NCBI RefSeq assembly: GCF_947260015.1
Contig: NZ_CAMYOM010000017.1
Location: 1-44,251, forward strand
Length of the DNA: 44,251 nucleotides
Direction of reading: 5' to 3'
Origin: an uncultured Eudoraea sp.
Lineage (GTDB): Bacteria; Bacteroidota; Bacteroidia; Flavobacteriales; Flavobacteriaceae
Shown here: piece after piece, positions 28,506 to 37,229 of the stretch
How positions within the stretch are numbered: position 1 is the first letter of the stretch
How the letters are laid out: each line of letters starts with the position of its first letter
The notes under the pieces: generated by a model
Told to the model about the DNA's origin: nothing
Database searches by the model: none
Seen by the model: only the letters and a program-made list of their open reading frames with translations
Translations under genes and position numbers: made by a program

Positions 28506-29822
28506 CTAATACCTGTAATAGTCGGGCTTATAAGGGCCTTTAACTTCAACTCCAATATAAGATGCCTGCTCTTCTCGCAATTCTGTGAGTTCAGCACCCA
28601 AACGTTCCAAATGCAGTTTCGCAACCTTTTCATCTAAATGCTTAGGAAGCATATATACCTTATTTTCATATTTATCATTATGTTTCCATAACTCTATTTG
28701 TGCGAGTGTTTGGTTTGTAAACGAATTGCTCATAACAAAACTTGGATGACCGGTGGCACATCCTAAATTAACCAATCGTCCTTCGGCAAGCACTATAATG
28801 TCTTTCCCATCAATAGTATATTTATCTACCTGCGGCTTAATCACATCTTTGGTATTACCATAATTGTCATTTAACCAGGCCATATCTATTTCGTTGTCAA
28901 AATGGCCAATATTGCAAACAATAGCTTTATCACGCATGGCTCTAAAGTGTTCTTCCTTGAGGATATCCTTATTTCCGGTAGCCGTAATTACAATGTCGGC
29001 ATTACTAACTACTGTTTCTAGTCTTTTTACCTCATATCCGTCCATAGAGGCCTGCAGAGCGCAGATGGGATCTATTTCAGTAACTGTAACAATAGCTCCT
29101 GCTCCTCTGAATGAAGCTGCCGTGCCTTTTCCAACATCTCCATAACCTGCAACAACAACTCGTTTTCCCGCGAGCATAGTATCCGTGGCCCTTCTAATCG
29201 CATCTACTGCACTTTCCTTGCAACCATACTTATTGTCAAATTTTGATTTGGTGACCGAATCATTCACATTTATGGCCGGCATTGGCAATACCCCATTTTT
29301 GAAACGCTCATAAAGTCGGTGGACTCCGGTAGTTGTTTCTTCTGAAAGACCTTTAATTCCGGATGTTAGTTCTGGAAATAGATCCAATACCATATTTGTA
29401 AGATCGCCTCCATCATCCAGTATCATATTAAGCGGCTTGCGTTCTTCACCAAAAAACAGTGTTTGCTCTATACACCAGTTAAATTCCTCTTCATTCATGC
29501 CTTTCCATGCATAAACAGGTACGCCGCTTGCTGCTATGGCCGCAGCAGCATGATCCTGAGTGGAGAAAATATTACATGAACTCCATGTAACTTCTGCCCC
29601 AAGAGCAGTAAGGGTTTCTATAAGTACTGCTGTTTGTATGGTCATATGAAGACAACCTGCAATACGGGCACCCTTAAGTGGTTGTTCTTTTTTGTACTCT
29701 TCACGTAAGGCCATAAGCCCGGGCATCTCGGCTTCAGCCAATTCTATTTCTTTTCTTCCCCATTCCGCCAAGCTAATGTCCTTGACTTTAAATGGAACGT
29801 ATGGTATTGTATTGGTTTGCAT
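28506..29822 (-). CDS. ahcY: Adenosylhomocysteinase
   Basis: NAD-dependent hydrolase that splits S-adenosylhomocysteine into adenosine and homocysteine, clearing the product of SAM-dependent methylations. The 438-residue protein has the substrate blocks [16 protein letters not shown] and [14 protein letters not shown]. The catalytic/ligand stretch [13 protein letters not shown], the NAD loop [20 protein letters not shown], and the C-terminal [19 protein letters not shown] and YKPDYYRY are all present. Complete and unmodified. It is a single gene divergent from the phosphopantetheinyl transferase. Confidence 0.98.
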
Positions 29823-29878
29823 ATCTTTTTTATTTTTTTACATTCGTCCTACAGAAATTCTTTTACAATTTCAAAAGG

Positions 29879-29886
29879 CAAAGATA
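29879..29886 (-). promoter_or_regulatory. Promoter -7 element of ahcY
   Basis: Minus-strand TATCTTTG matches TAnnTTTG and lies 56 bases before the ahcY start. The site is about 20 bp from the start of the divergent gene. Confidence 0.55.
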
Positions 29887-29906
29887 ATGATAACTTAAAA
29901 TATTGT

Positions 29907-30545
29907 ATGCCTCTTTACAAAACTATAACAGTAAACCCATATACCAAGGTATACATTTGGAAGATTACAGAGTCTGAGAAAGAACTTTCCTTAAATATTG
30001 AGCTTACTAATAATTGCCAGCTTAGAGTGAACAGTATGAAGTCTGAATTGCATAGGAGAGGGTTTTTAAGCATACGCCACTTAATGGGGTTAGCGGGTTA
30101 TGTAGATAGTGATCTTTTTTATGACCTGGCGGGAAAGCCACATCTGAAAGACGGTAATCATATCTCCATTACACATTCATATCAATTTACAGGAATAATT
30201 GTAAGTCAGATAGATGAGGTTGGGATTGATATCGAGAAACAAAGGGATAAAATAATCCGTATTGGGCATAAGTTTACTACTACAGAGGCATATGCCAATA
30301 TTAAAAACGCAAAAGAAATCGTTAAAAAACTAACAATTATATGGGGCGCCAAAGAGTCCCTTTATAAGATATATGCCACCCATGGGCTGAGTTTTATAAA
30401 TCATATTTATATCGATGATTTTATAAACATCGATAATACTACGAAAGGTATTATCAGATATGACGGGTGCATATCTGAGTACGATATTTCTTTTCTGGAA
30501 TTTGAAGAATTTACCTGTGTATATGCAATCAAAAAAGAAGGTTAA
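29907..30545 (+). CDS. 4'-phosphopantetheinyl transferase superfamily protein (Sfp-type)
   Basis: Transfers the phosphopantetheine arm of CoA to carrier proteins. The 212-residue protein has the Sfp motifs in order: GKPHL with HISITHS, the metal site EVGIDIEKQ, and WGAKESLYK. It is the only clear holo-synthase in the window and may serve acyl carrier protein. The ATG at 29907 is preferred to an upstream in-frame start at 29817 that would run across the ahcY promoter. The gap to the thiamine-binding protein gene is 33 bp with no terminator, so it may lead that operon. Confidence 0.88.
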   Translation: MPLYKTITVNPYTKVYIWKITESEKELSLNIELTNNCQLRVNSMKSELHRRGFLSIRHLMGLAGYVDSDLFYDLAGKPHLKDGNHISITHSYQFTGIIVSQIDEVGIDIEKQRDKIIRIGHKFTTTEAYANIKNAKEIVKKLTIIWGAKESLYKIYATHGLSFINHIYIDDFINIDNTTKGIIRYDGCISEYDISFLEFEEFTCVYAIKKEG

Positions 30546-30578: not shown

Positions 30579-30839
30579 ATGAATATATCTGTTGAACTGA
30601 CCTTAACTCCGTTACAGGATAATTATGAAGAGCTAATTATAGGTTTTATTAAAAAAATAAGGACCTCCGGTTTTACCGTCTTGGAAAATCCTTTAAGTAC
30701 GCAGATTTATGGAGATTATGATGATATAATGAAACTGCTTATTAAAGAAATTAAAATTACTTTGGAATTAGTGGAAAATGGTTTAATGTATATCAAAATT
30801 GTAAAAACAGACCGAAGCAATTATGAGCCAGATTTTTGA
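30579..30839 (+). CDS. Thiamine-binding protein (YkoF/MTH1187-like)
   Basis: An 86-residue protein of the ferredoxin-like Thiamine_BP (PF01910) type. It starts MNISVELTLTPLQDNYEELI and has the signature SGFTVLENPLSTQIYGDYD, where the central N-P-L-S-T-Q/I-x-G turn is characteristic. Relatives bind thiamine or its hydroxymethylpyrimidine part; there is no enzyme motif. It overlaps the PnuC-type transporter gene by 17 bp, so the two are translated together. With the TPP riboswitch 2.8 kb downstream, thiamine is the likely ligand. Confidence 0.82.
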   Translation: MNISVELTLTPLQDNYEELIIGFIKKIRTSGFTVLENPLSTQIYGDYDDIMKLLIKEIKITLELVENGLMYIKIVKTDRSNYEPDF

Positions 30840-31461
30840 TTGGGTTTTTGCTCAATACCAGGATACACCTGCGTTCCTAATCATCCTTGAAATGATAGGT
30901 GTTGTTTTCGGATTTTTAAGTGTGTGGTATGCAAAAAGAGAAAATATCCTTGTATTTCCTACCGGAATAATCAACACAGGGATCTTTGTATATATTCTTT
31001 GGGTATATGGGCTATTGGGAGACATGCTTATAAACGCGTATTATTTTTCCATGAGTATTTTAGGCTGGTACTTATGGACGAGAAAAGTAGATGCCGACCA
31101 TTTTATCCCAATAACAAAAACGAACAAGCAAGAGAAAAAATGGTCCGCACTCCTGTTTATTGGAGCGGTTGTTTTTGTTATTCTGGTGTATTCCTTGTTC
31201 GATAAATTTAATAGTTGGACGGCCTATGTGGATACCCTTACAACGGCCATTTTCTTTGTAGGGATGTGGCTTATGGCCAAAAAAAAGCTCGAAAATTGGA
31301 TCTATTGGATTATTGGTGATGTAATTACAGTTCCTTTATATTTGTATAAAGGACTTATTTTTACATCACTGCAATATTTATTATTTACCATAATCGCCAT
31401 TTATGGTTATATGGCATGGAAGAAAAACTTAAACAAAAGCCCGCTAACCTTATTAAAGTAG
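30823..31461 (+). CDS. PnuC-family vitamin transporter (probably PnuT-type, thiamine)
   Basis: A 212-residue integral membrane carrier with about seven hydrophobic segments. The PnuC family signature is seen in GFLSVWYAKRENILVFPTGI and in NAYYFSMSILGWYLW. PnuC proteins move nicotinamide riboside, and close relatives move riboflavin (PnuX) or thiamine (PnuT), with trapping by a downstream kinase. The neighbours point both ways: a thiamine-binding protein and a TPP riboswitch on one hand, a NadR-like kinase on the other. I favour thiamine. It overlaps the kinase gene by 46 bp. Confidence 0.85.
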   Translation: MSQIFDWVFAQYQDTPAFLIILEMIGVVFGFLSVWYAKRENILVFPTGIINTGIFVYILWVYGLLGDMLINAYYFSMSILGWYLWTRKVDADHFIPITKTNKQEKKWSALLFIGAVVFVILVYSLFDKFNSWTAYVDTLTTAIFFVGMWLMAKKKLENWIYWIIGDVITVPLYLYKGLIFTSLQYLLFTIIAIYGYMAWKKNLNKSPLTLLK

Positions 31462-31979
31462 TTCTGTTTGGTCCTGAATCAACAGGTAAGACTACCTTGG
31501 CCCGGGAACTTGCAAATCATTATCAAACTACATGGGTCCCTGAATATGCGCGTGAATATTTGCAGGAAAAATGGAATAAAGAACAAACTACTTGTGAACC
31601 TCATGATTTGATACCTATTGCAGAAGGCCAAATTAGTTTGGAAAATGACTTGACGGAAAAAGCAAATAAACTTCTTATTTGTGATACAGATCTTTTAGAA
31701 ACTAAAGTATATTCTGAAGCATATTACCTTGGTTATTGCGATCCTGTATTAGAAAAATACGCTTTGCAGAATACATATGATCTTTATTTGCTAACTTCCA
31801 TAGATATTCCCTGGGAAAAAGACGATCTTCGGGATAAACCTAATGAACGCGAACGCATGTTTCTTTATTTTAAGGAAACATTGGAAAAGTATGATAAGAA
31901 TTTTGTTATTTTAAATGGGGATAATGGAAAAAGGCTTGCACTGGCCATTAAATCTATCGATAAACTACTCCACAAATGA
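31416..31979 (+). CDS. NadR-like P-loop kinase (nicotinamide riboside kinase fold)
   Basis: A 187-residue P-loop kinase. The Walker A motif GPESTGKT is at residues 19-26. VPEYAREYL follows, with the arginine typical of the NadR C-terminal kinase domain, then the CDTDLLETKVYSEAYYLG block and the lid region DDLRDKPNERERMF. NadR kinases phosphorylate nicotinamide riboside. The N-terminal repressor and adenylyltransferase domains of enteric NadR are absent. The only possible start lies 46 bp inside the transporter gene, meaning tight coupling of uptake with phosphorylation. Substrate could be nicotinamide riboside or thiamine. Confidence 0.88.
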   Translation: MEEKLKQKPANLIKVVLFGPESTGKTTLARELANHYQTTWVPEYAREYLQEKWNKEQTTCEPHDLIPIAEGQISLENDLTEKANKLLICDTDLLETKVYSEAYYLGYCDPVLEKYALQNTYDLYLLTSIDIPWEKDDLRDKPNERERMFLYFKETLEKYDKNFVILNGDNGKRLALAIKSIDKLLHK

Positions 31980-33517
31980 TTGAGTTTTCACCAATGGATT
32001 TACAACAACTAGAGGAAAAGGGAATCTCAAAAGAAAAGGTTCTGGATCAGATTGAGACCTTTAAAGAGGGGATACCATTTGTAAGGTTGGAAAAGGCCGC
32101 AATAGTTTCGGATGGGATTTTGAAATTAAGTAAAGCGCGGGAGAAAAAGTTAGTCAGTAAGTTCGAAGAACTAAAAGGGCTTTTAAGTTTACTCAAATTT
32201 GTTCCTGCTTCTGGCGCTGCATCAAGAATGTTTAAATCCCTCTTTAACTTTTTAGAGCATTATGATCCTGACGCCGAAGATCTGGATACCTATGTAGACA
32301 GAATAAATGAAACGGATTTAAAGACTTTTTTTAAACAAATTAAAAAATTTCCCTTTTACGAGATTGTTCAAAAACGAATAAAAAACAAAGCCAGTTCAGC
32401 AAATGACATCAAATATCGTTTTGTAAGTGAAATGTTATTGAAAGAAAACCTTAATTATGGTTTTTACCCGAAAGGACTTTTACCCTTTCACAATTACGTG
32501 AAATTTACTGCTACTCCTTTTGAAGAACATTTAAAAGAAGCTTCGAGCTATGCCGTTGTAAACAATACGGCAAAATTACATTTTACTATTTCAGAACAAC
32601 ACCAATCCTTATTTTCTCAAGAATTTAAAACAGCTGGTCCCAGGGTATCAAAAGCTGCAAAAACGGAATTTGAAGTTACATATTCAAATCAAAAACCCTC
32701 TACAGATACTATAGCGGTAACTCCGGATAATGAGCTGTTTAAGAAGGATGATGGGTCATTATTATTTAGACCTGGTGGCCATGGAGCACTTCTTGAGAAC
32801 TTAAATGAACAAAATGCAGATATTATCTTTATTAAAAATATTGACAATGTAGTAGTACCTAAACACGAAGCTGAACTGGCAACTAGCAAGAAAGTACTTG
32901 CCGGCTTGCTTCTGGAATTACAACAAAAAGCATTTGCTTATGCAGATCAGCTGGAAAGAAATGACATTAATGGTGAACAATTACACGAAATCAAAACATT
33001 TTTAGAAAATGATCTCAATGTTAGGTTTTTAGAGAGTTTTTCAAGTTTTAGCATCGCGGAGCAATTGGAAATATTAAAAGACAAGATCAACAGACCTATC
33101 CGTATTTGTGGGATGGTTAAGAATGAAGGTGAACCAGGTGGAGGTCCTTTTTGGATAAGAGACGTACATGATCATATTTCACTGCAAATCGTAGAATCTG
33201 CCCAGGTGGATACTTCCGATGAAAGTCAGATGGCTATTTTAAAGAATTCAACACATTTTAACCCGGTCGACCTTGTATGTGGAGTAAGAAATTTTAGAGG
33301 TGAGAAGTATAATCTCTTGAACTTTGTTGATACAAAACAGGGGTTTATCTCACAAAAAACAGAAGATGGCAAAGAACTAAAGGCCCTTGAATTACCAGGA
33401 CTTTGGAACGGGGCTATGGCCTTTTGGAATACAATATTTGTTGAAGTTCCCTTACTCACTTTTAATCCGGTAAAAACAGTAAACGACCTTTTAAAGCCAG
33501 CACATCAGGTAACTTAG
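31976..33517 (+). CDS. DUF4301 family protein, possible nucleotidyltransferase fold
   Basis: A 513-residue cytoplasmic protein of the Bacteroidota family DUF4301; function unknown. It overlaps the kinase gene by 4 bp (ATGA). Two stretches recall sugar-phosphate uridylyltransferases. VPASGAASRM (residues 76-85) sits where a nucleotide loop would be expected. PGGHGALLENL (266 onward), followed by FIKNIDNV with D290 and N291, resembles the P-x-G-H-G...N-x-D-N signature of UDP-sugar pyrophosphorylases. GMVKNEGEPGGGPFW lies at about 380. The resemblance is by eye and needs a profile comparison. Confidence 0.8.
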   Translation: MIEFSPMDLQQLEEKGISKEKVLDQIETFKEGIPFVRLEKAAIVSDGILKLSKAREKKLVSKFEELKGLLSLLKFVPASGAASRMFKSLFNFLEHYDPDAEDLDTYVDRINETDLKTFFKQIKKFPFYEIVQKRIKNKASSANDIKYRFVSEMLLKENLNYGFYPKGLLPFHNYVKFTATPFEEHLKEASSYAVVNNTAKLHFTISEQHQSLFSQEFKTAGPRVSKAAKTEFEVTYSNQKPSTDTIAVTPDNELFKKDDGSLLFRPGGHGALLENLNEQNADIIFIKNIDNVVVPKHEAELATSKKVLAGLLLELQQKAFAYADQLERNDINGEQLHEIKTFLENDLNVRFLESFSSFSIAEQLEILKDKINRPIRICGMVKNEGEPGGGPFWIRDVHDHISLQIVESAQVDTSDESQMAILKNSTHFNPVDLVCGVRNFRGEKYNLLNFVDTKQGFISQKTEDGKELKALELPGLWNGAMAFWNTIFVEVPLLTFNPVKTVNDLLKPAHQVT

Positions 33518-33612
33518 TTTAAGGAGATATGTTTATTTGAAAAAAAGTTTTTTTCTTATTTTATCGAATTTTAATTATGAAGCTTTTATTATGAAAAACG
33601 GAACTACCATCG

Positions 33613-33620
33613 TAACTTTG
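33613..33620 (+). promoter_or_regulatory. Promoter -7 element of the TPP riboswitch / TonB receptor transcript
   Basis: TAACTTTG matches TAnnTTTG exactly and ends 13 bases before the conserved aptamer core, so the transcript would begin right at the edge of the aptamer. The preceding 95 bp after DUF4301 are AT-rich with no gene. Confidence 0.6.
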
Positions 33621-33771
33621 TTTCATCTCAAAAGGGGTGCGAACTCCTGACAAAAAGTATTCTATAAATCTGGTTACATTAAACACGATTTTTACAATGC
33701 TTTCAGGATAAGCTGAGATTATACCCAAGGAACCTGGGCAGGTAATGCTGCTAAGGGAGGCGAAAGTCGCC
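33621..33771 (+). ncRNA. TPP (thiamine pyrophosphate) riboswitch
   Basis: The conserved Thi-box segments occur in order: GGGGTGC (33634-33640), GCTGAGA (33712-33718), ATACCC (33721-33726), GAACCTG, then GCAGGTAATGCTGC and AAGGGA. P2 is GGGGT with ACCC. P3 is TCCTGA (33645-33650) with TCAGGA (33703-33708) and holds a 52-nt insertion, long for this class. P5 is GCAG with CTGC. A small hairpin GGCGA-AAG-TCGCC at 33759-33771 follows the core and may be part of the expression platform. It lies 85 bp before the TonB receptor gene, which it should turn off when TPP is abundant. Confidence 0.92.
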
Positions 33772-33855
33772 ATTTGGATTTATTTCTGTCTCTTCAGAAA
33801 AAGAAAAAATCATAAAAATTAGAATAGAACCCCTCTTATTCGTCTTGAACTACGA

Positions 33856-36027
33856 ATGAAGGCTGTTATACTAATTTTTTTCATGATTTGTATTGGTGCA
33901 AAATCCTATACTCAACAACAAGAATCTGACACTACTGCCCTTAAGAAAATTGTTTTGGACGAGGTTTTTGTTTCTGCCATAAGAGTTACTAAAGAAACTC
34001 CTGTAACGTTTTCCAATTTAACAAAGGAAGAAATAATGCCAAGGAACCTGGGACAGGATATTCCTGTTCTTATGAATTTTTTGCCTGCGGTAGTTACAAC
34101 TTCCGATGCCGGGGCCGGAGTAGGCTATACAGGGATACGCGTTAGAGGAAGTGATGCAACTCGTGTAAATGTTACTATTAATGGAATACCTTATAACGAT
34201 TCTGAATCACATGGCACATTTTGGGTAAATATGCCCGATTTTGCATCTTCAACAGAAAGCCTGCAATTACAGCGGGGAGTTGGCACATCAACAAATGGAG
34301 CAGGGGCTTTTGGTGCAAGTTTAAATATATTGACAGATGCTACCTCGATGGAAGCCTATGGGCATATATCATCTTCTTATGGCAGCTTTAATACACTTCG
34401 CAACAATATCAAGTTCAGTACAGGATTGTTAAATGAACATATTGAAATTTCCGGGAGATTATCCAGAATAACATCTGATGGCTATATTGACAGGGCTTCA
34501 TCTGAACTGGATTCCTATTTTTTACAGGGTTCTTATGTTGATGATAACACCTTAATAAAAGCACTCCTTTTTGGAGGACACGAAGTTACTTACCAGTCAT
34601 GGTTTGGCATTGATGCAGAAACTCTTGCAACTGACCGGACTTTTAACCCGGCCGGAATATATACCGATGAAAATGGTAACACTCAATTTTACGACAGGGA
34701 AGAAGATAATTATAAACAAGATCATTTTCAACTACTCTGGAATGAAACCATATCACCTTTATGGAGCACAAATATTGCATTTCACTATACCAAAGGACGT
34801 GGTTACTTTGAGCAGTTTAGAGAAGACGATGATTTTGAAACCTATGGATTTTCACCAATAGTGGTTGATGGAGAGTTAGTGAATACCACAGATTTAATCC
34901 GCCGTCGTTGGCTTGATAATGATTTTTACGGAACTGTATTTTCTGCCAAATATGAAAAAGACAAAATAAACCTTATCATTGGTGGAGGGTGGAATTCCTA
35001 TAATGGAGATCATTTTGGTGAAGTAATCTGGGCGCGTTTTGCAGGAAATAGTATGATCAGAGATAGATATTATGATGATGATTCCAAAAAAACAGACTTC
35101 AATGTTTTTGGAAAAATAAACTATAAGATTTCTCAAAATTGGAAGCTTTTTGGAGATCTACAATTTAGAACTGTGCGATACAACGCAAACGGCGATGAAA
35201 CTGGATTGGTAGATGATAGATTTAATTTCTTTAATCCTAAAGTTGGTGTCACCTATGATCTTAATAATTCAAATAATTTATATCTCTCCTTTGCGGTAGC
35301 AAATCGTGAACCTAACAGGAATGATTATGAGAATGGCAATCCTAAACCAGAAAAACTGAATGATTTTGAATTGGGATGGCGTTATGTCTCACCTTCTGTT
35401 CAGCTAAGCACTAATATATATTACATGAGGTATAAAGATCAGTTAGTATTAACCGGAGAACTCAATGACGTAGGGGCTCCACTACGGGCCAATGTTGGTG
35501 ACAGTTATCGTCTTGGTCTTGAAGTTGATGCCAGTATAAGCATTGGTAAGCGCTTCAAATTACAACCCAATATAGCACTAAGCACAAATAAGAATATTGA
35601 TTTTCTTTTTGAGAGAGATGGGGAGTTAGAAAATTTAGGGAATACGAATATTGCCTTCTCTCCAGATATTGTGGCAGGTAATATTCTTAGTTACTTGCCC
35701 AATGAAAAATTTCAAATGTCGTTACTTACGAAATATGTTGGAAAACAATTTATGGGTAATATTGATGCGGAAGGCTCTGTTCTTGAGGACTATTCACAAA
35801 CAGATTTTAATATACAATACACTTTCCATACAAATTCATTCATAAAAAGCATCGTACTCACAGGACTGATTAATAATGTTTTTGACGCCCGCTATGTATC
35901 AAACGGCTACTTTTTTACTTATGATGACGATTTTTCCAATCCGGGAACTATAACCACAATTGAAGGCGCCGGGTATTACCCACAGGCCGGAATAAACTTT
36001 CTATTGGGAGCAACGTTTAACTTCTAA
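33856..36027 (+). CDS. TonB-dependent outer membrane receptor, predicted thiamine transporter
   Basis: A 723-residue receptor: signal peptide to about residue 19, a short N-terminal stretch with a TonB-box-like VLDEVFVSA, and a plug domain at about 55-165 (RVRGSDATRVNVTINGIPYN, then GAFGASLNILT). The 22-strand barrel ends in LLGATFNF with the terminal phenylalanine. It has no CarboxypepD-like N-terminal domain and no SusD partner, so it is the vitamin/siderophore type rather than SusC. The TPP riboswitch directly upstream makes thiamine or a phosphorylated thiamine the likely cargo. Confidence 0.93.
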   Translation: MKAVILIFFMICIGAKSYTQQQESDTTALKKIVLDEVFVSAIRVTKETPVTFSNLTKEEIMPRNLGQDIPVLMNFLPAVVTTSDAGAGVGYTGIRVRGSDATRVNVTINGIPYNDSESHGTFWVNMPDFASSTESLQLQRGVGTSTNGAGAFGASLNILTDATSMEAYGHISSSYGSFNTLRNNIKFSTGLLNEHIEISGRLSRITSDGYIDRASSELDSYFLQGSYVDDNTLIKALLFGGHEVTYQSWFGIDAETLATDRTFNPAGIYTDENGNTQFYDREEDNYKQDHFQLLWNETISPLWSTNIAFHYTKGRGYFEQFREDDDFETYGFSPIVVDGELVNTTDLIRRRWLDNDFYGTVFSAKYEKDKINLIIGGGWNSYNGDHFGEVIWARFAGNSMIRDRYYDDDSKKTDFNVFGKINYKISQNWKLFGDLQFRTVRYNANGDETGLVDDRFNFFNPKVGVTYDLNNSNNLYLSFAVANREPNRNDYENGNPKPEKLNDFELGWRYVSPSVQLSTNIYYMRYKDQLVLTGELNDVGAPLRANVGDSYRLGLEVDASISIGKRFKLQPNIALSTNKNIDFLFERDGELENLGNTNIAFSPDIVAGNILSYLPNEKFQMSLLTKYVGKQFMGNIDAEGSVLEDYSQTDFNIQYTFHTNSFIKSIVLTGLINNVFDARYVSNGYFFTYDDDFSNPGTITTIEGAGYYPQAGINFLLGATFNF

Positions 36028-36064: not shown

Positions 36065-36502
36065 TCAGTTGGAAATTACAACTGTTGTTCCATCAAATGA
36101 AGTGTTGTAAAATAAAAGGTCATAATAACGTTTCCCGTCATCAGGCCGGTCTAATTGTTGTCCGGTAAACAAAATATATTCAAAATCTTCGCATGAACAA
36201 ATTACCGTTTGACTATTAAGATCCATTGTAGAACAGGCATTTGGCGCGTGATTTGGGCAACTGGCTTCCCAGGCAAAAAATTGGTCAAAACCCGTATTAA
36301 TGACAAAAACACCTCTTATTCCAACGCCCTGGTTTCCAATGAATATAGCATTCCCCGTGTTAGATAAGGGACTATATAGTGGTAAATTAAGATTAGCTTC
36401 AAATCTGAAGCCAACTTCCGGCAAATAAGGATTGCGGTTTTCTTCATCTTTACCACAGGCCAGTAGTACAATAAACACAAACCAAAGGCAAATTCTTTTC
36501 AT
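36065..36502 (-). CDS. Rieske-like lipoprotein with altered cluster motif
   Basis: A 145-residue lipoprotein (lipobox L-L-A-C, cysteine near residue 16). The C-terminal half resembles a Rieske domain: ASCPNHAPNAC, then VICSCEDFEYILFTGQ. The usual ligands C-x-H...C-x2-H are not present in that order. Instead there are C82-x2-H85-x4-C90 and C102-x-C104. The protein may bind a metal differently or may have lost its cluster. No redox partner is adjacent. It is convergent with the TonB receptor and divergent from greA. Confidence 0.7.
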   Translation of the reverse strand: MKRICLWFVFIVLLACGKDEENRNPYLPEVGFRFEANLNLPLYSPLSNTGNAIFIGNQGVGIRGVFVINTGFDQFFAWEASCPNHAPNACSTMDLNSQTVICSCEDFEYILFTGQQLDRPDDGKRYYDLLFYNTSFDGTTVVISN

Positions 36503-36555
36503 ATAATAATAGAATTCAATTAAGCTATCTTAAACAAAATTGAACAAAAAATATG

Positions 36556-36563
36556 TATATTTG
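36556..36563 (+). promoter_or_regulatory. Promoter -7 element upstream of greA
   Basis: TATATTTG matches TAnnTTTG. The predicted transcription start, 4-5 bases further on, coincides with the first base of the hairpin at 36568. The leader before the greA ATG would be about 185 nt. Confidence 0.6.
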
Positions 36564-36567
36564 CGTT

Positions 36568-36593
36568 AAATCCTCTTTAAAAAAGAGGATTTT
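36568..36593 (+). terminator. First hairpin of the greA leader
   Basis: An 11-bp perfect stem (AAATCCTCTTT and its complement) with a 3-base loop and a short T run lies at the very 5' end of the predicted transcript. So near to the start it might protect the RNA 5' end as well as, or instead of, stopping transcription. Confidence 0.6.
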
Positions 36594-36678
36594 CTTATCA
36601 GTTAAACCTCATTTTGATTAATTACCCCACATAATGTGTTTATCTTAAATTAGTTAAATCAAAATGGTAGTTTAAACT

Positions 36679-36707
36679 AATCCTGCGTTTTCGTAGGATT
36701 TATTGTT
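36679..36707 (+). terminator. Second hairpin of the greA leader, terminator-like
   Basis: A 9-bp stem (AATCCTGCG with CGTAGGATT, one G-U pair), TTTT loop, then TTATTGTTT. Termination here would release a leader RNA of about 135-140 nt and reduce greA expression. It ends 46 bp before the greA ATG. Confidence 0.6.
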
Positions 36708-36752
36708 TAATGATTTTGGGCATACTTTTTATGTTCAAATAATAAGGAAGTT

Positions 36753-37229
36753 ATGAGTAATGTATCATATTACACTGCTGAAGGATTAAAAAATCTCAAA
36801 GAAGAATTAAATCACCTGAGAGATGTTGAAAGACCTAAATCTTCACAGGCAATCGCTGATGCCAGAGATAAGGGTGATTTATCGGAAAATGCCGAGTATG
36901 ATGCAGCTAAGGAAGCGCAGGGATTACTGGAATTAAAGATATCTAAAATGGAGGAGACTTTGTCTAATGCCAGATTAATTGATGAATCTCAGCTAGATAC
37001 TTCTAAAGTACTCGTGCTTTCGACTGTAAAACTTAAAAACCAACAAAATGGTATGGTTATTAGTTACACTCTTGTAGCTGAAAGTGAAGCGGACTTAAAG
37101 TCCGGGAAAATTTCTGTTACTTCACCAATTGGCAAGGGCCTTCTTGGTAAAGAAGTAGGCGACGTTGCCGAAATTACAGTGCCAAATGGCACGCTAAAAT
37201 TTGATATTCTTGAAATAAGCAGGAATTAA
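36753..37229 (+). CDS. greA: Transcription elongation factor GreA
   Basis: Binds the RNA polymerase secondary channel and promotes cleavage of backtracked RNA. The 158-residue protein has an N-terminal coiled coil with the acidic tip DARDKGDLSENAEYDAAKE, in which the Asp/Glu pair acts in cleavage. The C-terminal FKBP-like domain ends with SPIGKGLLGKEVGDVAEI and PNGTLKFDILEI. Length is normal. It has a long structured leader with two hairpins and a terminator directly after the gene. Confidence 0.97.
   Translation: MSNVSYYTAEGLKNLKEELNHLRDVERPKSSQAIADARDKGDLSENAEYDAAKEAQGLLELKISKMEETLSNARLIDESQLDTSKVLVLSTVKLKNQQNGMVISYTLVAESEADLKSGKISVTSPIGKGLLGKEVGDVAEITVPNGTLKFDILEISRN

Follow-up and report, generated by a model that had tools for sequence, protein, structure and literature searches.

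The genome of this uncultured Eudoraea raises the question of what converts thiamine to thiamine monophosphate (TMP). Thiamine pyrophosphokinase (TPK) is the enzyme known to convert imported thiamine in a single step. Our searches of the genome yielded no match to TPK and none to ThiE, and they located ThiL at G000:C9:57944-58936; thus, the step from thiamine to TMP is a gap. Here, we analyze a stretch of 44,251 nucleotides (the window), in which a first-pass annotation had recognized a probable thiamine salvage locus of six features. All six are present on the + strand in the order described there, and we add one small hairpin:

30579..30839, + strand: small thiamine-binding-like protein of PF01910/YkoF type, which opens the gene set
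30823..31461, + strand: PnuC/PnuT-type carrier
31416..31979, + strand: NadR-like P-loop kinase, NMNAT domain absent; proposed thiamine kinase
31976..33517, + strand: DUF4301 protein, UDP-sugar-pyrophosphorylase fold predicted
33623..33775, + strand: TPP riboswitch aptamer with a long P3 arm (RF00059 match)
33759..33771, + strand: small hairpin GGCGA-AAG-UCGCC at the 3' end of the aptamer match, read from the sequence
33856..36027, + strand: TonB-dependent receptor (PF00593 and PF07715, both above cut-off)

The first four genes are joined by overlaps of 17, 46, and 4 nt. The carrier scores above the PnuC family cut-offs (PF04973, 180.4 bits; TIGR01528, 110.5 bits) and matches PDB 4qtn (E=1.6e-7). 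Its only NCBIfam equivalog above cut-off is the nicotinamide riboside transporter, TIGR01528; from the context of the locus, we infer that it is a PnuT, i.e., a thiamine-specific PnuC. The thiamine-binding-like protein falls just below the cut-off of PF01910 (23.8 bits; cut-off 24.9) and below that of PF07615 (19.4 bits; cut-off 21), with a weak match to 2ibo in the PDB (E=0.013). It may have a role in the locus, as may the DUF4301 protein.

At the Rfam gathering score (RF00059 cut-off, 54.3 bits), no riboswitch is reported in the window. With permissive filters, RF00059 matches 33623-33775 at 28.3 bits (E=0.0011); model positions 1-105 are aligned, P1 and part of P3 include non-standard pairs, and 65 nt of the P3 arm are not displayed in the alignment. 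In a genome-wide search, this is the sole TPP match of the genome at E<=1 (24.5 bits). Low RF00059 scores are usual in the family: a match lies above the cut-off in 44 of 149 genomes and at E<=0.1 in 148. A model built from 28 relatives, with the window excluded (R1), matches 33687-33775 at 50.7 bits (E=5e-15). The core motifs GGGGUGC, CUGAGA, ACCC, GAACCU, UAAUGC, and AGGGA are present in the window along with the helices, and the core is nearly invariant across the 28 relatives. Seven close relatives (one of them partly N) retain the aptamer and the P3 arm, in which TCCTGA pairs with TCAGGA (33645-33650/33703-33708 in the window). The small hairpin is also kept in close relatives, with one compensatory change from C-G to U-A (L038). 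We take the element to be a TPP riboswitch on the strength of its core, structure, and context rather than its score, and predict that it binds TPP.

To describe the setting of the kinase, we used the 141 kinase loci of other family genomes, leaving out the window's own. The gene order and riboswitch placement are widely conserved: PnuC lies directly 5' of the kinase in 137 loci, the thiamine-binding-like protein is recognized 5' of it in 102, and an R1 riboswitch lies 3' on the same strand in 124, including 16 without DUF4301. A TonB receptor homolog starts within 1.1 kb past the riboswitch in 123 of these 124. The first-pass annotation had proposed that carrier-kinase pairs found apart from TPP riboswitches would speak against a thiamine function, and what we find is the opposite. 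It had also cautioned that the upstream genes are not themselves behind the riboswitch. This is borne out, as no riboswitch precedes them in the window and all 124 family matches of R1 are downstream of the kinase; regex hits upstream of the carrier and kinase genes in two relatives (L057 and L074) were false when read. Outside the family, the link between kinase and riboswitch is found again in two other families, with riboswitches above the Rfam cut-off in both a kinase-riboswitch-receptor (G210) and a PnuC-kinase-riboswitch-receptor (G309) locus, and PnuC adjoins the kinase in 12 of 20 loci. Adjacency by itself is weak evidence, because genes for AHCY, PPTase, a Rieske-like protein, and GreA likewise show wide synteny. 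A defense-system reading of the locus gave weak noise only.

One family genome (G121) is an exception in kind. It has TPK and no kinase match, and a TPP riboswitch (RF00059, 53.0 bits; R1, 29.1 bits) lies immediately before its PnuC gene. This arrangement ties the PnuC carrier family to thiamine.

The distribution of the kinase and TPK was compared in a family sample of 149 genomes and a phylum sample of 296 genomes. Within the family, the kinase is found in 142 genomes, ThiL in 148, and TPK in 11 (138 have no TPK match). TPK occurs in five of the seven kinase-less family genomes versus 6 of the 142 others (Fisher p=1.6e-5, which ignores descent). ThiE gives no match at E<=0.001 in 92 family genomes; of these, 88 carry the kinase, three carry TPK only, and one carries neither (G079, 81% complete). 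One TPK-bearing genus of 17 genomes (g127) was set aside in the phylum counts: TPK is found in all 17 and the kinase is absent from three, so both occur in 14. The remaining 279 phylum genomes include none with both genes, 51 with the short kinase only (eight of them outside the class), 131 with TPK only, and 97 with neither (Fisher p=7e-17, uncorrected for kinship). Genomes with NadR-size frames, 10 in all, are left out of this count; if all hits are counted, both genes occur in 15 genomes. The class alone, again minus g127, has 0 genomes with both, 43 with the kinase only, 11 with TPK only, and 2 with neither (p=5e-10; the Fisher test ignores descent), and according to our tree, these last two carry short-type kinases. 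The six family genomes that have both genes include one, G127, that is also counted in g127. Five genomes (G100, G145, G230, G431, and G297) have TPK and no kinase and retain the carrier, DUF4301, riboswitch, and receptor.

The first-pass annotation had suggested that the NadR-like kinase and DUF4301 together take the place of TPK. For the kinase, this is supported, because TPK and the kinase exclude each other outside one genus and the five loci from TPK-bearing genomes lack the kinase alone; the kinase appears to stand in for TPK, and such a swap seems to be common among relatives. For DUF4301, the suggestion is not supported: it is not directly 3' of the kinase in 23 of the 141 family loci (at least three of which end at a contig edge), and it occurs without the kinase in 14 TPK-bearing genomes outside the class.

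Altogether, family conservation and TPK exclusion support and extend the thiamine salvage reading, and we consider it likely that the kinase makes TMP, from which ThiL then makes TPP. Thiamine or a phosphate ester would enter through the outer-membrane TonB receptor, whose synthesis would be controlled by the TPP riboswitch. The PnuC-family carrier would move thiamine over the inner membrane, and the NadR-like kinase would convert it to TMP, so that it is trapped inside. ThiL, encoded elsewhere, would attach the second phosphate, and the resulting TPP would in turn shut the riboswitch. This proposal rests on the gene order, the riboswitch, their conservation, the lack of a TPK or ThiE match in the genome, the presence of ThiL, and TPK exclusion outside one genus; from these, we infer the substrates of the receptor, carrier, and kinase as well as the direction of regulation.

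The family relationships of the kinase raise an alternative. The window kinase matches AAA_28 (146.1 bits) and, over profile positions 162-319 only, NadR TIGR01526 (109.9 bits, below the cut-off of 341.15). Profile searches found in it no NMNAT domain, no TPK catalytic domain (PF04263), and no match to ThiK (TIGR02721). Its closest solved structures are nicotinamide riboside kinases, the RNK domains of NadR (PDB 9x6f, 1lw7, 8x7f, and 6gye), which have the same P-loop and fold (profile E between 1e-25 and 1e-12). NadR has NMNAT and DNA-binding domains, whereas the window kinase has neither and is tied to thiamine loci, and the lid region reads WxxDDLR in the window kinase but W-x-x-D-G-L-R in three aligned NadR sequences. 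The carrier and kinase could thus import and phosphorylate nicotinamide riboside in the style of PnuC and NadR, with the thiamine receptor a neighbor by chance, as the homology to RNK domains and the carrier's score above the PnuC equivalog cut-off would suggest. We consider this unlikely. Besides the missing NMNAT domain, the riboswitch is linked to the kinase in most family loci and in two other families, in G121 a TPP riboswitch immediately precedes PnuC, and exclusion with TPK is not expected of a NAD enzyme. Furthermore, six genomes (G195, G289, G328, G344, G001, and G218) encode, in addition to the short kinase, a separate protein that matches both NadR domains, so they do not have the short kinase as their sole NadR. 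In our tree, a split of modest support (92/68) also divides the short kinases of the family and most others from the bulk of the NadR-size domains; the tree includes two of the eight out-of-class kinase-only genomes, neither of which joins the other short kinases.

A further reading gives DUF4301 a catalytic part: the short NadR-like kinase would be a new non-orthologous thiamine kinase family in most of the class, and the nucleotidyltransferase-like DUF4301 would add a nucleotide to a thiamine phosphate. The product would be a thiamine nucleotide, in analogy to the synthesis of NAD from nicotinamide riboside by NadR. The DUF4301 protein matches PF14134 (721.6 bits, above cut-off), occurs as a fusion with the kinase in some genomes, and has no PDB homolog by sequence up to E=1. 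Its structure model (pLDDT 94.1) resembles UDP-sugar pyrophosphorylases in predicted fold (PDB 3r3i, 6tn3, and 1jv1; Foldseek E ~1e-11 to 1e-8, best 3r3i at E=1.3e-11), and the listed matches share ~9-16% identity with it at TM-scores of 0.36-0.54; UDPGP PF01704 scores 19.2 bits (cut-off 22), a likeness in fold only. Around DUF4301 in other classes and families, the neighboring genes follow no common theme: five of seven mapped loci gave 10 flanking proteins, eight with an assigned family (carboxyltransferase halves, RelA/SpoT, PagL, ArsC, amylase, STAS, and PALP) and two with none. DUF4301 is dispensable; its absence directly downstream in the 23 kinase loci noted above and this lack of a theme lead us to reject the idea that the thiamine step requires it. 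We regard the nucleotide reading as improbable.

Two further alternatives keep the thiamine context and change the reaction. Given that the kinase seems to replace one-step TPK, and that ThiL is too widespread in the family to discriminate, the kinase might transfer pyrophosphate directly to thiamine, making ThiL unneeded; however, its structural relatives, the NadR RNK domain and thymidylate kinase, are monophosphoryl transferases, and ThiL is retained even where no ThiE match would supply TMP, which makes this highly unlikely. That the substrate is a thiamine precursor (hydroxymethylpyrimidine or hydroxyethylthiazole) we regard as very improbable, for although precursor salvage is described as common in gut genomes (PMC6593275), nearly all ThiE-less family genomes have the kinase and could not join the precursors without ThiE (YjbQ is named as a ThiE alternative in PMC5613172), and the exclusion is with TPK, whose substrate is thiamine.

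Returning to the proposed salvage locus, the leader between the aptamer and the receptor contains two elements that may bear on how the riboswitch acts:

33829..33837, + strand: candidate anti-aptamer strand, complementary at 8/9 positions to the aptamer strand AAAAGGGGU at 33630-33638
33838..33857, + strand: hairpin AUUCGU...ACGAAU (inverted repeat I10), overlapping the receptor start codon at 33856-33858

The first corresponds to inverted repeat I3 (89%), and the equivalent place in family leaders, near -34 from the AUG, pairs with the aptamer at a mean of -9.7 kcal/mol. An equivalent start-codon hairpin is found in 87 of 101 element-carrying leaders, compensatory changes included. Equilibrium folding of the 101 leaders gave this hairpin a mean probability of 0.95-0.97 whether P2, the anti-aptamer pairing, or nothing was enforced; in the free ensemble, the mean probability was 0.31 for the anti-aptamer pairing (~0 in the window) and 0.18 for P2. 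No switching was seen, and we rejected an equilibrium model of it. In an alifold analysis of 107 leaders, the only helix was GAAUAA/UUAUUC, nearly invariant and almost without covariation. The leader element is thus conserved and complementary to the aptamer, a candidate switching strand whose mechanism equilibrium folding does not explain. TPP riboswitch action in Bacteroidota is called uncertain in PMC5613172, and the element offers a testable lead on it.

Family names alone would place the NadR-like kinase among the vitamin B3 enzymes, yet it appears to fill the TPK gap. If this is true, the B1 and B3 needs predicted from genomes of the class require correction, the PnuC proteins adjoining the kinase should rather be called PnuT, and a first functional context is provided for DUF4301. 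PMC8552899 portrays Flavobacteriales as potential B1 auxotrophs and consumers of B1 in coastal plankton. Titles and abstract openings in the open-access literature searched yielded no proposal of a NadR-like thiamine kinase or of a function for DUF4301; a single paper there mentions DUF4301.

Among known systems, the thiamine transport genes of Bacteroides given in PMC5613172, OMthi (BT2390), pnuT (BT2396), and tnr3 (BT2397), share with the window a TPP riboswitch, a TonB receptor, and a PnuT-type carrier. The third gene there is tnr3, termed a thiamine pyrophosphorylase in that paper, where the window has the NadR-like kinase instead, and unlike in Bacteroides, the carrier and kinase of the window sit 5' of the riboswitch. 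A single family genome (G016) is ordered riboswitch-receptor-PnuC-TPK. ThiK of enterobacteria (TIGR02721) catalyzes the reaction that we propose, thiamine to TMP followed by ThiL, but it is a family unrelated to the window kinase: none of the 24 genomes searched has a ThiK match above cut-off, and the single distant match to the ThiK superfamily in the window's own genome (33.5 bits; cut-off 299.45) lies elsewhere from the kinase.

The locus comprises four overlapping genes followed by a TonB receptor gene, with a TPP riboswitch in the 338-base gap that separates the receptor from DUF4301:

30579-33517, + strand: genes for a protein resembling a small thiamine-binding protein (TBP), a PnuC-family carrier, a NadR-like kinase and a DUF4301 protein
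33856-36027, + strand: TonB receptor

The frames of the four upstream genes overlap by 17, 46 and 4 nt, in order. The kinase, which we propose turns thiamine into TMP, is 187 aa long; an uncultured Eudoraea has a kinase with 94% identity to it, and the window's host is a flavobacterium near Eudoraea. We infer the specificity of the PnuC-family carrier from its context. The riboswitch, the sole TPP match in its genome at E<=1, scores 28.3 bits vs the Rfam curated score of 54.3 and thus falls under the cut-off, with its core present and a long P3 arm. By R1, a model built on 28 relatives with the window excluded, it scores 50.7 bits, and riboswitch and P3 arm are kept in seven close relatives.

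In the best 80 of 521 kinase relatives in named genomes, PnuC always immediately precedes the kinase and DUF4301 immediately follows it, with TBP recognisable upstream in 71; the sample is biased because it holds the kinase's nearest relatives. The broader sample consists of 149 Flavobacteriaceae genomes, 142 of which match the kinase profile, and we fetched all of these loci but the window's own. Gene order and riboswitch placement, which the first-pass annotation suggested checking, are conserved in most loci of the family: PnuC is immediately 5' of the kinase in 137 of 141 loci, and R1 has a match in 124 stretches, in every case 3' of the kinase and on its strand. TBP lies upstream in 102 loci, DUF4301 directly 3' in 118 and a homologous receptor 3' on the kinase strand in 123; the receptor match begins <=1.1 kb past the riboswitch in 123 of the 124 R1 loci. 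Among the 17 stretches without an R1 match, the contig ends <=3.4 kb from the kinase in seven, and ~9.5 kb is visible in ten. Adjacency alone is little proof, because genes for AHCY, a PPTase, a Rieske-like protein and GreA, which lie at 28506-30545 and 36065-37229 in the window and flank many family loci, are also widely syntenic.

The riboswitch lies 5-9 kb past the kinase in 32 of the 124 loci; one of these (L287, 7196-11077) encodes a sigma-54 response regulator and a hybrid histidine kinase by Pfam. By identity to the window protein, carriers in the PnuC slot form two sets, at about 40-55% (e.g. L040, L048) and 60-80% (e.g. L041, L045), while the neighbouring kinase stays similar across both, a possible sign of gene replacement or a shift in specificity. 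Outside the family, PnuC adjoins the kinase in 12 of 20 fetched loci. An Rfam scan of 12 of the 20 found over-cut-off riboswitches in two genomes, in the order kinase-riboswitch-receptor (G210) and PnuC-kinase-riboswitch-receptor (G309).

The window's own genome has ThiL, and searches of it gave no match to thiamine pyrophosphokinase (TPK) or ThiE. A 375-aa frame there (G000:C5:170442-171071) has a weak ThiK-superfamily match (33.5 bits vs a cut-off of 299.45). Across the 149 family genomes, ThiL is found in 148, TPK in 11 and ThiE, at E<=0.001, in 57, of which 36 exceed the ThiE cut-off. The 92 without a ThiE match divide into 88 with the kinase, three with TPK only and one with neither (G079, 81% complete). 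Of the seven kinase-less genomes, five carry TPK and the other two are G020, with a ThiE match, and G079; kinase and TPK occur together in six of 149.

For the phylum sample (296 genomes), we counted kinase hits in frames <290 aa plus all family hits. Short kinase and TPK occur together in 14 genomes, all in genus g127, where 17 of 17 genomes carry TPK. Without g127, no genome has both, 51 have the kinase only (8 of them outside the host's class), 131 TPK only and 97 neither, a count that disregards the longer, NadR-size frames of 10 genomes. With every kinase hit counted, 15 genomes have both, 60 the kinase alone, 133 TPK alone and 88 neither (p=1.7e-9, descent ignored). The class without g127 gives 0, 43, 11 and 2, respectively. 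The two "neither" genomes, G218 and G259, had their kinase frames disregarded as NadR-size, yet their kinases are short-type by tree (L372, L355); once they are counted, all 73 class genomes of the phylum sample have the kinase or TPK. TPK-only genomes are spread over several of the class's families, which makes more than a single swap between kinase and TPK likely.

Loci without the kinase bear on the proposal that it takes the place of TPK. Five genomes with TPK (G100, G145, G230, G297, G431), in which the kinase profile search found no match, keep PnuC, DUF4301, riboswitch (R1) and receptor on one strand. Loci that lack only the kinase, in genomes that carry TPK, are the pattern that functional replacement would predict. 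In G431, where the kinase is missing, DUF4301 is broken: L380 5855-7344 reads in two pieces, with a stop inside the hit of one. The family member G016 (L316, 4293-8234) has the order riboswitch-receptor-PnuC-TPK, and a search there for the NadR-like kinase found no match. G121 also has TPK and no kinase profile match; in L377 (4081-4839), its TPP riboswitch (RF00059, 53.0 bits) is directly 5' of a PnuC gene (202 aa; PF04973, 172 bits), and inspection of the stretch showed no receptor, DUF4301 or TPK of this type. The gene past this PnuC has only sub-cut-off acyl-CoA dehydrogenase matches.

The nearest solved relatives of the kinase by profile search are NadR RNK domains; Foldseek on the model of a kinase-DUF4301 fusion gives the same answer, followed by thymidylate kinases. 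In a 59-domain tree with some long-branched rows, the 25 kinases of the family group together (97/96), and 18 of the 20 short kinases from other families cluster with them at modest support (92/68). NadR-size domains fall apart from the short-kinase group, L372 excepted, and two short kinases from f37, a family outside Flavobacteriaceae, group with a protein in a NadR-size frame. In L372 (666-2159, G218), one open frame encodes a short-type kinase together with an aldose 1-epimerase domain. Six short-kinase genomes also carry a protein matching both TIGR01526 domains, under its strict cut-off. PMC6593275 names ThiK, ThiM and ThiN as signature enzymes of thiamine salvage, and its text on these enzymes does not include a NadR-like kinase.

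A conserved leader element, GAAUAAU-nn-CCyCUUUU(U)AUUCG...CGAAUG, is located between the aptamer and the start codon of the receptor gene and is represented in the window by:

33822-33858, + strand: leader element
33829-33837, + strand: candidate anti-aptamer strand, which can pair with 33630-33638
33838-33857, + strand: start-codon hairpin

A search of both strands of the 141 stretches (3.6 Mb) for the pattern gave 106 occurrences. Of these, 93 are no more than 160 bases ahead of the receptor match; another 12 start 183-344 bases ahead of it and, when read, are soon followed by a start codon; and one (L266) is behind a riboswitch at the stretch end, with no receptor in view. The pattern was not found in the 30 loci with the strongest TPP hits. 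The CCyCUUU segment complements the aptamer strand AAAGGGG, with a mean duplex energy of -9.7 kcal/mol at -34 from the AUG vs about -1 to -2 elsewhere. At least seven Watson-Crick bases could join leader and aptamer in 46 of 114 leaders vs 2.9% of mononucleotide shuffles; the commoner form, CCUC (52 of 101 leaders, chosen by the pattern), needs one G-U pair. In 87 of the 101, AUUC is part of a hairpin that overlaps or adjoins the start codon; at four positions of the stem the standard pairs differ between leaders (mean z -3.6). Equilibrium folding leaves this hairpin unchanged between states, and switching by the leader is therefore a conjecture.

DUF4301 sits with thiamine genes in the family, and it is kept in the five loci above that lack only the kinase. 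It was not found beside the kinase in 23 of 141 family loci. Outside the class, it occurs in 14 TPK-bearing, kinase-less genomes, with no shared neighbours among the loci examined. Its confident structure model (pLDDT 94.1) is similar to the pyrophosphorylases of UDP-glucose and of UDP-GlcNAc, with a best E of 1.3e-11, TM of 0.36-0.54 and a large rmsd. Kinase and DUF4301 share a single open frame in four of 141 family loci and in 14 of 17 g127 genomes (733-800 aa), with G127 in both counts. The fusion of a kinase with a nucleotidyltransferase-like protein is reminiscent of Bacteroides FKP and of NadR, and this likeness is the root of an unlikely reading in which DUF4301 would put a nucleotide on a thiamine phosphate, much as NadR makes NAD.
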